IMG/VR virus record: IMGVR_UViG_3300044691_000308
Coordinates: 1-51,780 of that record
Source: a virus
Strand: one strand, 5' to 3'
Length of the DNA: 51,780 bases
Position numbers and translations under genes: made by a program. Shown here one piece after another: positions 46,335-51,780 of the stretch. The stretch's first letter is position 1. Every line of letters starts with the position of its first letter. The notes beneath the pieces were generated by a model. It worked only from the letters and a program-made list of their open reading frames with translations, made no database searches and had not been told where the DNA came from.

Positions 46335-46627
46335 TAGGGATTGATCGCGACCGCGACTTCTTCGCGGATGATCTCGCGCACGAGCTCCTCGAAGGTGAGC
46401 TCGGCCGGTGCGGGGTCCGCGCCCTTGGGGCGCTCGGGCATTTTGACCAGGGCAAGTGCCTGCGCGCATGGCTTGCAGCAGTCGATCTTCTTGGCAACTT
46501 GCATCTCAGCTGAAAAGCGATACTGCTGTGCGACGCTGCTGAAGCGCACTTCGACGATGTACATGTGCTCATTGGTCGAGGCCTCAGCCCCGCAGCGATC
46601 GCATTTATAAATGGTCGTGATGCTCAT
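46334..46627 (-). CDS. Hypothetical protein with Cys pairs, 97 aa
   Basis: MSITTIYKCDRCGAEASTNE (CxxC), later CCKPCAQ (CxxC) and an acidic tail (FEELVREIIREEVAVAI). A zinc-ribbon-type fold is likely. It overlaps parB-like by four bases. Confidence 0.6.
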   Translation of the reverse strand: MSITTIYKCDRCGAEASTNEHMYIVEVRFSSVAQQYRFSAEMQVAKKIDCCKPCAQALALVKMPERPKGADPAPAELTFEELVREIIREEVAVAINP

Positions 46628-48141
46628 TTCTTCGCCTTGGCTTTCTTCTTCGCGGGCTTGGCCGCGGCGGTGAGTTCGGCGCGGATCTTCTTGACGTCGA
46701 CGCCGAGTTCCTTCGCCGCCTTCACTAGCTCAGGCGTGCCTGCGAATTCCATGCTGTCGAGCAACTGAATCTCGAAGAGAAGCTGCTGCAGCTGTCCTTC
46801 ATTAAGTTTCTCGATTGCCTTCAATCCGAAGTCTTTGAACCCCCACGCTTTTTGAAGAGTTTCGGTGGGGGCGATCGCATCGAGTTCGTGGTCGACCAGC
46901 TTGACGAGAATGGCGTGAGACAGCTTTTTCGGCGCTTTGGCATGGATGGCTAGAAACACCAGTTCCCGGAATTCATTGTCGATCTTTTCGGCAATCGAAT
47001 CGGCTTTCTTCTTTGAGCTGCCGACGCGTACGGATCCAGTTTGCGGCTTGATGACGCCGTCAGCCTTGAGCTTCTTGATCGCATCGTTCTTCTGCACGAG
47101 CTCGACCAGGTCGCCGCCCTTGGGCAGCTGCACTAACACCGGCGCCGCCTCCTTGCCGAGGATCTGCTTGTATGTGCGGTGCTTCGGATCATCCCAGCAC
47201 TTGGCATCGAGCCGCGTAAAGCCGCCGGCGAAGGATTGATCGCCGTATGCCGCGATCTTCTTCGCCTCGGCACCCGTGATGACCTCGCGGCCGGCTTCCT
47301 TGGCCTGGACGATCTGCAGCTTCGCCCAGGCCTCGCGTTTCAATTTGAAGCAAACCGGATCCGTGCAGACGTCTGCGCTTTTGACATCGGCGAACAGTTC
47401 AGCCTGATTTCCCGTGCGTTTCGGGCACGGGCCGCAGGCGCCGGCCTTCGGCAGCAGCTCGGCATTGCCCGTCGGGAACGGCGCATCGCCCAGGCGCAGC
47501 ATGTACTCGCGCTCTATATAGTCCCGGGCATCGCGGTACGACATCGGCGCGTCGTCATAGCGGCCCTTCGTAATCTTTCCGACCGCATCGCGTTGGACGG
47601 AGGCGACCGGGATCCTCGCCAGCAGCAACGCGGTCGATGCGTTGAGATCGCCGCGGTAGAAGGCCTCGCGCGCCGCAGGTCCCAGCGCCAGCAATTTCAT
47701 GCGACCGTAGACGTAGGCCTTGGACTTGCCGAGCTTGTCGGCGATCTCCTCAGCGGAGTGGCCATACTTCTGCAGCTGCTCATAGCCTTCCGCCTCGGCG
47801 AGCGGATGCAGTCCTTCGCGCTGCAGGTTCTCGATGAGCTGCACCTCGAGCACCTGCTCATCGCTTAAAGTGCGCACGGAGACGTCGATCGCGGTGAGGC
47901 CGGCGAGTTTCGCCGCGATGAAGCGCCGCTCCCCAAAGACGATCTCGAAGTGCCCATTGACCGGGCGGGCGAGGATGGGCTGGAGCACGCCCACGGTCTT
48001 GACCGACTTGGCGAGCTCCTCGAGCTCGGCCTTGTTGAAATGCTTGCGCCGCTCGGTCTGCCCCGCGGTGGTCGAGACCTGCAGTTGCTCAAGCATGAGC
48101 GCTCGGATGCCGATGCCGCTTTCACTATTTGCGATTGTCAT
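46624..48141 (-). CDS. ParB/RepB/Spo0J-like partition protein
   Basis: A 505-residue protein. HFNKAELEELAKSVKTVG and GHFEIVFGERRFIAAKLAGL form the ParB CTP-binding domain (a GERR motif). YEQLQKYGHSAEEIADKLGK with SKAYVYGRMKLLAL is the central helix-turn-helix. A Cys cluster (CGPCPKRTGNQAELF, ADVCTDPVCF) and a Lys/Ala-rich C-terminus follow. No ParA gene is visible. Phages without a plasmid stage often carry such proteins with an unclear role in DNA organisation or regulation. Confidence 0.85.
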   Translation of the reverse strand: MTIANSESGIGIRALMLEQLQVSTTAGQTERRKHFNKAELEELAKSVKTVGVLQPILARPVNGHFEIVFGERRFIAAKLAGLTAIDVSVRTLSDEQVLEVQLIENLQREGLHPLAEAEGYEQLQKYGHSAEEIADKLGKSKAYVYGRMKLLALGPAAREAFYRGDLNASTALLLARIPVASVQRDAVGKITKGRYDDAPMSYRDARDYIEREYMLRLGDAPFPTGNAELLPKAGACGPCPKRTGNQAELFADVKSADVCTDPVCFKLKREAWAKLQIVQAKEAGREVITGAEAKKIAAYGDQSFAGGFTRLDAKCWDDPKHRTYKQILGKEAAPVLVQLPKGGDLVELVQKNDAIKKLKADGVIKPQTGSVRVGSSKKKADSIAEKIDNEFRELVFLAIHAKAPKKLSHAILVKLVDHELDAIAPTETLQKAWGFKDFGLKAIEKLNEGQLQQLLFEIQLLDSMEFAGTPELVKAAKELGVDVKKIRAELTAAAKPAKKKAKAKK

Positions 48142-49438
48142 TGTGTTGCCCTCTTGATAGGAATTCGCGCAGCCACGGAAATCGGCGCCCGATGCGCTGC
48201 CGGACCTTGAAGCTGCTCGCGTGTTTGAAGTGGCCTGCGTAACTGGAGCAGATGGATCTCAGGCGATCGCCGTCAGCTCGGGTTGCAACCACGCGATCGC
48301 CGCGCACGTGGCGGCGCTGCCAATCGTGCAGCCTCATTTGGCAGTGGCCGATCACACGCCGGCGCACCAGCTTGTGCGTCGGGAAGATGACGTAGCCTAA
48401 AAAGTCGGCGCCGGCGGTGAGCGGGCGCAGCTTGATATCCGCCTTCAGTTCGAGCTTGAGATCCTCAAGGAGGAAGGCTGCGATCGCGGCCTGCCAGACC
48501 TCAAGCTGCTCGCGACTCTCATGGACCAGCACGAAGTCATCGACGTACCGCAAGTACCGCGGCGCGCGCAAGCGTCGCTTTACGAATTGATCCAACCTGT
48601 CAAGGTAGACGTTCGCGAAGAACTGGCTCGAGAGATTGCCGATTGGAATGCCGCAGCCAGCCGGAGCCTGGTCCAGGCGCTTGTGCGGCGGGACGCGATC
48701 GCGCTCCGCCGGCGTGCAGGCGAAGGTGACACCGGCCTCGAGGGGTGAATGGCGCAGCAGCGCATGCACGGCCCGGCGACAGTCTATTGACAGCCCGTGG
48801 CGCTCCATTCGAGTCTTTAGCAGTCTATAGAGCGTCGGCCGGTGGATGCGATTGAAGAAGTTCTTGATGTCGAGCTGCAGATAGTACCCGCCGCCCTGGC
48901 CGCTCTCGACCTCCCGCATGAACCCCTGCAGGCGCTCGACGGCTGCGTGCGTGCCCTTGCCGACACGGTTGGAGAAGCTGTCGAAGATGAATGTCTGCTC
49001 GTAGATCGCCTCGAGCTGCGGCACGATCCAGTGATGCACGATGCGATCGGCAAAGTCCGGGGCGTGGATCTCGCGCGCCTTAGGCGCCGTGGCGATGAAA
49101 CAGGTTGTCGGCCGCGGCCGCCACGTGCCGGCGCGTAGAGCCTTCTCGATTTCGAGCAGCCCATCGATCCACTGTGCATCGAAAGAAAGCTGGTTGGGAC
49201 TCGGCTTCTTGCCGCGTCGCGCGCGCCGCCATGCCGTGTGGAGGGCGCGAAAGCTTGCAGCACCCTGATACTCACTGGCGCGCACCGCGCGGACGTAATT
49301 GTCGTTGTCCTGGTTGTTCCAGTTGGCATTGCCGTGGTTGAAGTTGACATTCCAGGCGTAATCGCCCGGCGAGTACGCTGTTATCCCAAGCGCTTTCGAC
49401 CCGGCCGCACGGCCTCGAAGGTGGCGCGGCTTCGTCAT
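48125..49438 (-). CDS. DGR-type reverse transcriptase with embedded template-like N-terminus
   Basis: A 437-residue RNA-directed DNA polymerase. Motifs: YLQLDIKNFF (catalytic Asp190), GCGIPIGNLSSQFFANVYLD (residues about 261-280, the DGR-type SQ rather than the group II intron SP motif), and YLRYVDDFVLVH (Asp300-301). Residues 21-53 do not belong to a normal RT: they are a C-type-lectin/DUF1566 C-terminus rich in Asn codons, a template-repeat-like segment. ATG at 49438 overlaps the upstream fragment gene (ATGA). The last 17 bases overlap parB-like. No accessory Avd gene is visible. Likely active as a DGR polymerase; target unknown. Confidence 0.85.
   Translation of the reverse strand: MTKPRHLRGRAAGSKALGITAYSPGDYAWNVNFNHGNANWNNQDNDNYVRAVRASEYQGAASFRALHTAWRRARRGKKPSPNQLSFDAQWIDGLLEIEKALRAGTWRPRPTTCFIATAPKAREIHAPDFADRIVHHWIVPQLEAIYEQTFIFDSFSNRVGKGTHAAVERLQGFMREVESGQGGGYYLQLDIKNFFNRIHRPTLYRLLKTRMERHGLSIDCRRAVHALLRHSPLEAGVTFACTPAERDRVPPHKRLDQAPAGCGIPIGNLSSQFFANVYLDRLDQFVKRRLRAPRYLRYVDDFVLVHESREQLEVWQAAIAAFLLEDLKLELKADIKLRPLTAGADFLGYVIFPTHKLVRRRVIGHCQMRLHDWQRRHVRGDRVVATRADGDRLRSICSSYAGHFKHASSFKVRQRIGRRFPWLREFLSRGQHNDNRK
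49279..49380 (-). repeat. Template-repeat-like segment inside RT gene
   Basis: The minus strand encodes TAYSPGDYAWNVNFNHGNAN then WNNQDNDNYVRAVRAS. In the 20-codon stretch WNVNFNHGNANWNNQDNDNY nine codons are AAC or AAT. It ends in a GC-rich run (about 49275-49294), as DGR template repeats end in an IMH-type element. Adenines in AAY codons are the sites a DGR mutates. No second copy is seen in the window. Confidence 0.6.
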
Positions 49439-49650
49439 GGATTGGCCACAGGGGCGGCTTGGGAACTCAGTATCTCAGCGCGCTGCGAAGGAGGCTTATC
49501 CGCCCTCGCATTCTGGCTGTCTCGGTGCTGCGGTTTGGTTTCCTTCACCGTCCAGATGAGCGCCGTTGTGTTATCCAGCACCGCGACCCAGTCGGTAGCG
49601 TCGTCTGCCAGCTTTGCGCCGTCGGCGCCCACCTTCGTAAATCGGCTCAT
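49435..49650 (-). pseudogene. Truncated DUF1566-domain gene (DGR target remnant?)
   Basis: A 71-residue protein. MSRFTKVGADGAKLADDATD and WVAVLDNTTALIWTVKET match the N-terminus of DUF1566 proteins that usually continue 80-100 residues to a WCL-type variable end. After about residue 37 the sequence (KPQHRDSQNARADKPPS...) becomes unlike the family and stops. The missing C-terminus is the kind of sequence found at the RT N-terminus. It has AAGGGG upstream and is coupled to RT, so it may still be translated. I read it as a decayed or deleted DGR target. Confidence 0.55.
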
Positions 49651-49680: not shown

Positions 49681-50298
49681 CTACACCGCGGCCGCGGCGC
49701 GGCGCGTCTGCTCGACGATCGCGAAATACACCGCCATGCAGGCCTGCACATCGACCATGGCCTGGTGGGCGCCGACGAGCTCCTGCCCAGTGAAGTGCAA
49801 GTAGGCCTCGCGCAAGTTCGCGCTCTTGTGATGGCGCCGGCCCGCGGCGATCATCTTCGCGGTCGGCGGGAGTTTCAGGATCGGCGTCGAGAGCGCCTGG
49901 GTGCAAATGGCTGCCCCCCCCTTCCACAGATCCGGAAGGGCGGCATTGATCGCGTGACGAATTAATGCAATGCGCAAAATCCGAGCGTCGAAAGCCTCGT
50001 TGTGCGCAATGCGCGGCCGGAATCGATACAGCTCGATGAACATGCCGACAGCGACCGATTCTGGGATGCCGACGTCCGTCGCGCGCTCGGTGGTGATGCC
50101 ATGGATGGCCGCGACGTCATCAGGGATATGCCAACCGCGCGGCTGCACGATCACATCCATGCTCGCAATCGTCGAGCGGGTCTCGAGGTCGACTAAGCAG
50201 GCGGCGAGCTGCACGATGTGCGGCTGGCGCGGATCCTCGCTCGGCTCGCTGAAAAGCGGCAGCCCCGACGTTTCTGTATCGTAAAAAATTGCGATCAT
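49681..50298 (-). CDS. DnaQ-like 3'-5' exonuclease
   Basis: A 205-residue exonuclease of the DEDDh group. [10 protein letters not shown] (Asp and Glu), [10 protein letters not shown] (Asp) and [17 protein letters not shown] (His and final Asp) form the active site. It resembles the DNA polymerase III epsilon subunit. ATG 50298 has GGAGAG. Possible roles are proofreading, host-DNA degradation or recombination. The GPNGAGKSS ATPase is upstream in the same operon. Confidence 0.88.
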
Positions 50299-50819
50299 GC
50301 GGCTCTCCGTGCGCGTGGGCGCCTGTTGCGTGCCTGTTCTGAAGCGCTGGCCCAGCGGCAATTGCCGGATTCATAGTTGCCGTCGTTGTCGGGGTAACGA
50401 TCGAGTGAGTGGGCCGCGCTCGGCTTGCGACCCATGTTGGCGAGGAAGTTGGCGAATGACTGCCAACGCTCGCAGACGGTGATGCCGCGGCCGCCGTAGC
50501 GAGGCCAGTTCTCGCAGTTCGGGTCGATGCAGCGCTGGTGCATGGACTTCCAGGCGACCCACTCCGTTGTCGGTTTCCCGATGCAATCGCCGTGGCGCAA
50601 GCTTGTGGCCCGTGCCGTCTCCGATACGATGCAGCCGCACGACTCCGTGTCGCCCGAACGCAAAGAGGACAATCGAATGGTTCTCTCGCCGCCGCAATCA
50701 CATCGGCAGAGGCACCACGACCGTTGACCGCGGATAGTCATCCCAATGACCGTCAAGCGGCCGAACCTCGTGCCAGTGGCATCGCTGCGTTTGCGTGCGT
50801 TAGCCGCGGCGATTGCCAT
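50295..50819 (-). CDS. Phage Zn/HNH-like protein (RYGGRG motif)
   Basis: A 174-residue protein. The N-terminal zinc-ribbon-like part ([25 protein letters not shown]) is followed by [20 protein letters not shown], then [20 protein letters not shown], which resembles HNH/AP2-type nucleases found widely in phages. ATG 50819 has GGAGGGG and overlaps the exonuclease gene. Function is not established. Confidence 0.7.
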
Positions 50820-50851
50820 GCGCCCCTCCGGAGTTCTTGGACAGGCACCCC

Positions 50852-51780
50852 TCATGATGCCGCCGCCTCCGCAACCTCAACGTCTTTTAGATGGCCATCT
50901 TCCAGGACGATTGCATCTTTCCCGATAGCTCTGACTGTCTCCAAAAGTATTTGGGCATTAAATTCCTCCGCGAGGTTCTTGATGATCTCGTAGCTCTTGT
51001 CATCGAGCAGCGAAGCATCGCGCACCCACACCAGGCGCAGCGTCGGGTTCTTGGCGACCGCGATCGCAACACCCACCCGGAATTTCTGCGCGGTCGAGGC
51101 CTGATCGAACGGCACGCCGTCCAAGAACACCTCGCCATCGCCGAAGGTGATGCCAGCGACCGGCAGCTGCGCCGCGGCGATCGCGTCCTGCTTGACCTTC
51201 TCGCGCGCGTCCATTCGTGCCGTGATCTCAGCCGCCTCCCCCTCGTAGCGCTCGGCGACCTTGACGTGCTTGTCGCGCGTCTGGAGCTTGAGGATCGCCT
51301 CATTGGCGAACTCGGCCTGGCGGATGGTCTCGGCCAAGGCCTGCGTATCGATGGGCTGCGGCAGCGGACCCGCCGCGTCGAGCTTGGCCTGCAGTTCGTT
51401 TGCTTGATCGAGTGCATTCACGGCTTCGACCGCAATTTCAGCGCTGCGCCTTAAGGCTTCCTCTCGCGCCGTCTTCTGAGTCGCCTCAATAGCAGCCTTC
51501 AACTGCTCCATCTGCGCGAGCAGTTCGTCAACCCGGGCGTCGCAGGTGGCCTGGCGCTCGGTCGCGAAGACATTGAAACGCTCATCAGCGCTCGCATGCA
51601 GCGCCTGTAGTTGCGTGATTTGATCGACGACCTTCTCGCGGTTCGCCCGCCGGCGCTCGATGGCAGCGTTCCCATCGCCCGCCTCCTGCAGCTGCTGCAC
51701 GAGCGCTCCCTTGTCGATCGCCGTGGCGGGTGTGCCTTCGGGAACATTGATCATGTGCGCGGCCGCGCGCGACTCCCTGG
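50852..51780 (-). CDS. RecF/SMC-like ATPase, C-terminal part (joins 41-543)
   Basis: Last part of the split ATPase. From 51780 the frame reads [16 protein letters not shown] and joins the fragment at 41-543 through the shared 13-mer. A long charged coiled coil (about 200 residues) follows. Near the end [20 protein letters not shown] then [16 protein letters not shown] is the ABC signature region, and [16 protein letters not shown] the Walker B with a following Asp. This makes a complete ABC-type ATPase. ATG 51754 is only an internal Met. Confidence 0.85.

Follow-up and report, generated by a model that had tools for sequence, protein, structure and literature searches.

Among described DGRs, three are compared here with the locus under study: the BPP-1 DGR of a Bordetella phage (gene order mtd-avd-TR-brt; RNP structures 8ub7 and related entries), the loci of DiGReF structural group 3 and the DGR of Stenotrophomonas sp. 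SKA14. In BPP-1, avd is separated from the reverse transcriptase (RT) gene brt by the template repeat (TR) and a 144-nt spacer, and it is the spacer that carries the RNA structure (PMC12875486). The overlap of a TR with the RT open reading frame was catalogued in 2012 as DiGReF structural group 3, in a study which treats the overlap as an arrangement and proposes that the RT and TR RNAs are separately transcribed (PMC3521204). In strain SKA14, one DGR is accompanied by several DUF1566 target genes (PMC6642488); as far as the available part of that report goes, it shares multiple DUF1566/Lcl_C targets with the elements described here, its host group is the one which yielded our relatives, and neither translation of the TR nor RNA structure is discussed in that part. 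The bare layout of a TR within an RT gene is already known, and our loci fall in the same arrangement class as DiGReF group 3. What is new is an apparently translated TR that is clade-wide, frame-preserving and coupled to avd, an RNA model that also holds for DGRs with a non-embedded TR, and a target-less state in which only the RT and the RNA are kept.

The window analysed is the whole stretch of 51,780 nucleotides of the IMG/VR virus record IMGVR_UViG_3300044691_000308, and coordinates below refer to it; the features of the element are all on the minus strand (-). The record is a phage with head-tail connector and integrase genes, and its genome appears complete and circular from its sequence: the contig ends (1-53 and 51768-51780) share 13 bp, and the circle closes with an AAA/SMC-like ATPase joined across the ends, which aligns over 1-466 with the intact gene in the related locus L035 and over 1-462 with that in L007. 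The first 40 bases of the record resemble an assembly tail. HNH endonuclease and ParB-like genes are found near the element (at 50295-50855 and 46624-48141), and a ParB-like ORF is also located beside the DGR in L002 and L073. We consider it highly probable that this phage carries the RT and template half of a DGR, in which an RNA fold would present the template and the TR would be translated within the RT, and which a deletion has left as a remnant lacking targets and Avd. The layout, adenine bias, covariation and deletion are each read from the sequences, as set out below.

The RT ORF (48125..49438, 437 aa) has its core at about residues 62-430, the SQ motif IGNLSSQ at 266-272 and YVDD at 298-301; the ORF and both motifs are as the first-pass annotation of this DNA had described. 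Against the RT family profile the BPP-1 DGR RT scored 181.8 bits and the highest-scoring group II intron RT 75.3, and the top PDB match of the predicted fold is the BPP-1 RT (8ub7, TM 0.86 on target). For the fold, an AlphaFold model built with 20 relatives (mean pLDDT 77.5, residues 1-58 disordered) replaced one made without an alignment (pLDDT 37). By motifs, profile and fold this is an SQ-motif RT of the DGR clade, and grouping with non-DGR families, the outcome named beforehand as fatal to a DGR reading, is ruled against with BPP-1 as the nearest RT by both profile and fold. This identity rests on the profile and the fold; the tree of 99 RTs described below was built without a non-DGR outgroup and addresses embedding. 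A group II intron, retron or DRT identity was also considered and was rejected on the two profile scores and on TIGR04416, which scored 92.9 bits, below its cut-off of 300.

Within the 5' coding end of the RT gene, nine of the 18 codons of NVNFNHGNANWNNQDNDN are AAC or AAT, and the GC-rich run GTCCGCGCGGTGCGCGCCAGTGAGT comes directly after. RT residues 23-53 match the C-terminus of Lcl_C/DUF1566 weakly in Pfam (E = 0.0028, below the curated cut-off of the family). An Lcl_C/DUF1566-like, Asn-codon-rich block followed by a GC-rich run had been noticed here from the letters of the sequence, and was borne out. It goes beyond chance because 76 related loci share the block at the same position in the RT frame, with variable copies (VRs) nearby. 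These loci come from a protein search of IMG/VR, in which 576 relatives were found and 80 kept, 76 of them scorable for TR and VR; three relatives without a VR that start at or near a contig edge, and L052, which has an atypical match, were left out of the scoring. The relatives are prophages mainly in Lysobacterales (Xanthomonadales), and the intact ones have one to four Lcl_C targets, then avd, then the RT. The four target proteins from relatives that were submitted to Pfam all matched Lcl_C (1e-28 to 1e-33), a family for which the C-type-lectin fold has been reported.

The TR is inside the RT frame and after the start codon in 76/76 scorable relatives, which together have 154 VR copies (one to four per locus), 153 of them upstream of the TR. 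Of 1147 mismatches between TR and VR, 1063 are at template adenines, A making up 22% of TR bases, and the changes are most commonly from A to G (610), then T (315) and then C (138). A single fixed difference, G in the TR and C in the VR (GTGAGT/GTCAGT), accounts for 71 of the 84 non-adenine mismatches; it is at the 3' end and looks like the distinction between IMH* and IMH. In the phage genome studied here the TR is placed at 49270..49382 (RT codons about 20-57), with limits transferred from the alignment with the VRs of L002, and in the frame used by the target genes of relatives. Its 3' end, at 49270..49294, consists of the GC-rich run and the IMH*-like GTGAGT, so that this genome holds the TR side only of the pair, relatives' VRs having GTCAGT. 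The first-pass annotation had described a template-like repeat in the 5' coding end of the RT and had proposed a search for near-identical paralogous copies differing at template adenines. Such copies, with almost all of their differences at template adenines, were present in every scorable relative, and with the TR at the same place as in these 76 VR-bearing loci, the reading of codons ~20-57 as a DGR template repeat is supported.

The RT family and fold, avd upstream, a TR between avd and the RT core, an IMH*/IMH-like 3' end and mismatches at adenines are all shared between BPP-1 and this clade. The clade differs in having the TR inside the RT, and Lcl_C proteins as targets in place of Mtd. 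A conserved perfect hairpin just downstream of the VR, as in BPP-1, was not found in the 60 nt scanned. The Lcl-like block could alternatively be a functional protein domain or a gene fossil in the RT with no template role, and it does match the end of Lcl_C and adjoin a piece of a target gene. Against this are the adenine-specific VR copies in all scorable relatives, conservation at the nucleotide level above the coding background, and a peptide which is dispensable, the TR being in another frame in five loci; the probability of such a domain or fossil is in our judgement almost negligible.

The evidence that the TR is read by ribosomes comes from the relatives. In 70/70 representatives the stop of the upstream gene is overlapped by the RT start (ATGA or GTGA), GAGG or GGGG is found just before this start in 67/70, and a long ORF ends at the RT start in 67/70. 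A match to avd was found upstream of the RT start in all 68 relatives with enough flanking sequence, and is absent only in the present genome. PHROGs identify the upstream gene as Avd, with E-values of 1e-20 (PHROG 3206, 'Avd protein of DGR') and 6e-22; in Pfam the relatives' proteins score below the curated cut-off of bAvd, and the name rests on PHROGs and on position. There is no conserved in-frame start codon after the TR among the relatives. In L030, L035, L054, L070 and L094 the TR is in another frame, and compensating shifts keep the leader and the RT core in one frame. As these five loci read the TR out of frame yet rejoin the RT frame, the TR peptide is dispensable and ribosome passage is kept.

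The TR is therefore very likely to be translated as part of the RT. It was suggested from the sequence of this one genome that the RT mRNA also carries the template; this is supported by the overlap of the RT start with avd, by the absence of any conserved start beyond the TR and by the continuity of the frame. Use of one transcript as both message and template is what we infer from this anatomy. In the tree of 99 RTs, the embedded TR defines a clade of 38 (38/38, support 100/99), and the nearest neighbours of the clade (L099, L101, L102 and L103) are without it; sporadic embedded calls outside the clade of 38 reflect a loose criterion. In 44 distant DGR loci the TR is mostly just before the RT core, and is outside or partly outside the RT frame. 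This distribution would fit an untranslated TR, with the RT starting downstream of it and the long ORF an annotation effect of an A-rich, stop-poor repeat beside a gene, as would the few stops which AAC repeats yield in any frame, and the disorder of residues 1-58 in the AlphaFold model. We regard this as very unlikely, in view of the start overlapping the avd stop, the GAGG or GGGG which precedes it and the missing later start. Furthermore, the five loci regain the RT frame after an out-of-frame TR, which matters only if translation passes through, and the frame through the TR is open in 76/76 relatives compared to 11/44 of the distant loci.

Translation through the TR, which we prefer, coincides with a conserved structured DGR RNA of about 255 nt (49260..49515), comprising the avd 3' tail, the RT start codon, the leader, the TR and a clamp helix. 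It is identified by covariation and by a match to our covariance model R1 (235.9 bits, this genome being one of the sequences used to build R1). Codon-level constraint in the RT gene is 1.2-1.6 times background over most of codons 1-60, dips to 0.86 for codons 7-12 and returns to about background (ratio about 1) at codon 61; beyond codon 61 there is no excess synonymous conservation of the kind that a BPP-1-like structured spacer after the TR would leave. The hairpin P0 (49484..49510) is in the 3' coding end of avd. The stem P1 pairs CCCAAGC (49457..49463) with GCTTGGG (49385..49391), and all 7/7 pairs have changed on both sides across the relatives. The hairpin P2 (49445..49455) has in relatives a 3' strand of GAGGC or GGGGC, the likely ribosome-binding site of the RT, and a weaker GTGGC here; the covarying hairpin P3 (49404..49430) is in RT codons 3-12. 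In the alignments P1-P3 form a three-way junction in which the RT start codon is between P2 and P3 and the ribosome site is in P2. The clamp pairs GATACT (49469..49474), from the former avd tail, with AGTATC (49267..49272), at and just after the TR 3' end. Its 6-bp consensus joins GA[U/C/A]ACU in the avd tail to AGU[A/G/U]UC at and after the end of the TR, and compensatory changes across relatives include UACACU/AGUGUA, CACACU/AGUGUG and GAUUCU/AGAGUC. In the present genome the RNA is intact, with one P2 pair mismatched.

Across 58 sequences, 92.2% of paired cells can pair compared to 75.1% when shuffled, and 28 of the 34 RNA pairs show changes on both sides. Covariation was 0.468 compared to 0.157 shuffled, a value reached in 0/500 shuffles, and it fell to <0.12 when the partner column was slid by one to three; the alignment scored is also the one that had yielded the structure. 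R1 also found the same RNA upstream of or overlapping the RT start in the 44 distant loci, from Desulfobacterota, Campylobacterota, Nitrospirota, Elusimicrobiota and others, where covariation was 0.545 compared to 0.138; these are a separate set, but were aligned to R1. No match to Rfam was obtained for the RNA, even with a relaxed threshold on two relatives, and R1 did not match BPP-1. The conserved structure here is mostly 5' of the TR, with the 3' clamp strand beginning at the TR end, whereas in BPP-1 the structure is in the spacer. In BPP-1 (L162), the avd 3' end, at 71 to 56 nt ahead of the TR, is complementary over 16 bp, G-U pairs included, to the spacer at about 64-79 nt beyond the TR. 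This is a possible counterpart of the clamp, and closure of the template loop by a helix may be a general feature of DGRs.

The upstream part of the element differs in this phage. The RT is preceded by a 71-aa fusion ORF (49435..49650) in which codons 1-39 of an Lcl_C target gene run into the last avd codons. It is, by comparison with the related locus L012, a deletion scar, whose junction at 49531..49535 is separated by about 16 nt from the RNA element downstream. What has been lost is the counterpart of L012 7244-8460 (1217 bp), which holds VR1, the whole of target 2 including VR2, and the greater part of avd. The fused ORF is still open and still ends on the RT start, its TGA overlapping the RT ATG (ATGA). 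There are no other Lcl_C or Avd genes in the genome, and no VR was detected in a scan of both strands with adenine mismatches free, while a VR in a target gene was found in 76/76 scorable relatives. Of an accessory protein (Avd or HRDC), the avd tail alone remains. The initial reading of the RT and the embedded TR as parts of a DGR stands, with the amendment that the element in this genome is incomplete, having neither a VR nor Avd.

The loss could be a metagenome misassembly of a phage that has a complete DGR: the evidence is a single contig, and the junction sequence occurs in no other searchable IMG/VR contig. The join however connects codon 39 of the target to the final part of avd, which are unrelated and not repeated, and is not in the TR/VR repeats where assemblers fail, the fused ORF has stayed open with its ATGA overlap with the RT, and the contig circularizes without the missing genes, so we consider an assembly error quite unlikely. 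The dN/dS of the RT is 0.315 in this phage's lineage compared to 0.19-0.20 in sister lineages (p about 0.07); the RT appears still to be under purifying selection, which may be relaxing. That selection, together with an intact RT and TR, nearly all RNA pairs intact, and related prophages common in Lysobacterales, would be expected if the RT and TR RNA acted in trans, diversifying Lcl_C genes that belong to the host or to a prophage resident alongside, with the Avd of that element. Activity in trans is nevertheless unlikely, as a scan across IMG/VR for VRs sharing this exact TR backbone turned up no element but the one on the contig of L002.

For the intact elements, and up to the deletion for this one, the following course of events is proposed. 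The end of avd, together with the start of the RT and its first 60 or so codons, makes up one RNA domain of P0, P1-P3, TR and clamp, in which the 6-bp clamp joins the 3' end of the TR to the avd tail. The folded RNA would form an RNP and present that end to the RT-Avd complex for priming, and cDNA made with errors at template adenines would, by retrohoming, replace the VRs in the targets. Translation of this same RNA would begin at the ATG on the avd stop, the TR giving a disordered N-terminal tail of the RT. In this genome the deletion has taken both VRs and avd, leaving a remnant with intact RT and RNA. A more speculative extension, which we hold only tentatively, is that the RNA is a switch: when folded, with P2 hiding the ribosome site, P1 and P3 flanking the start and the clamp closed, it would serve as template, and when entered by ribosomes it would serve as RT message, with binding of RT-Avd to the leader repressing RT synthesis. 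The fold would then be ancient and common to many DGRs; in one phage clade, extension of the RT through the template would have made all of it coding.

If this arrangement functions as its anatomy suggests, the template for target diversity is itself translated within the mutagenic enzyme, and one stretch is selected at once as protein frame, template and structured RNA. The covarying pairs provide a specific model, open to test, for the way in which the template may be held in many non-Bordetella DGRs, and the covariance model could be used to find DGR RNAs without a TR/VR pair. The target-less genome is a naturally occurring example of half a DGR being retained once its targets were gone. 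Related RTs also occur at L148, L153 and L158, in MAG contigs labelled as Diapherotrites/Forterrea archaea, which are either real or binning errors.
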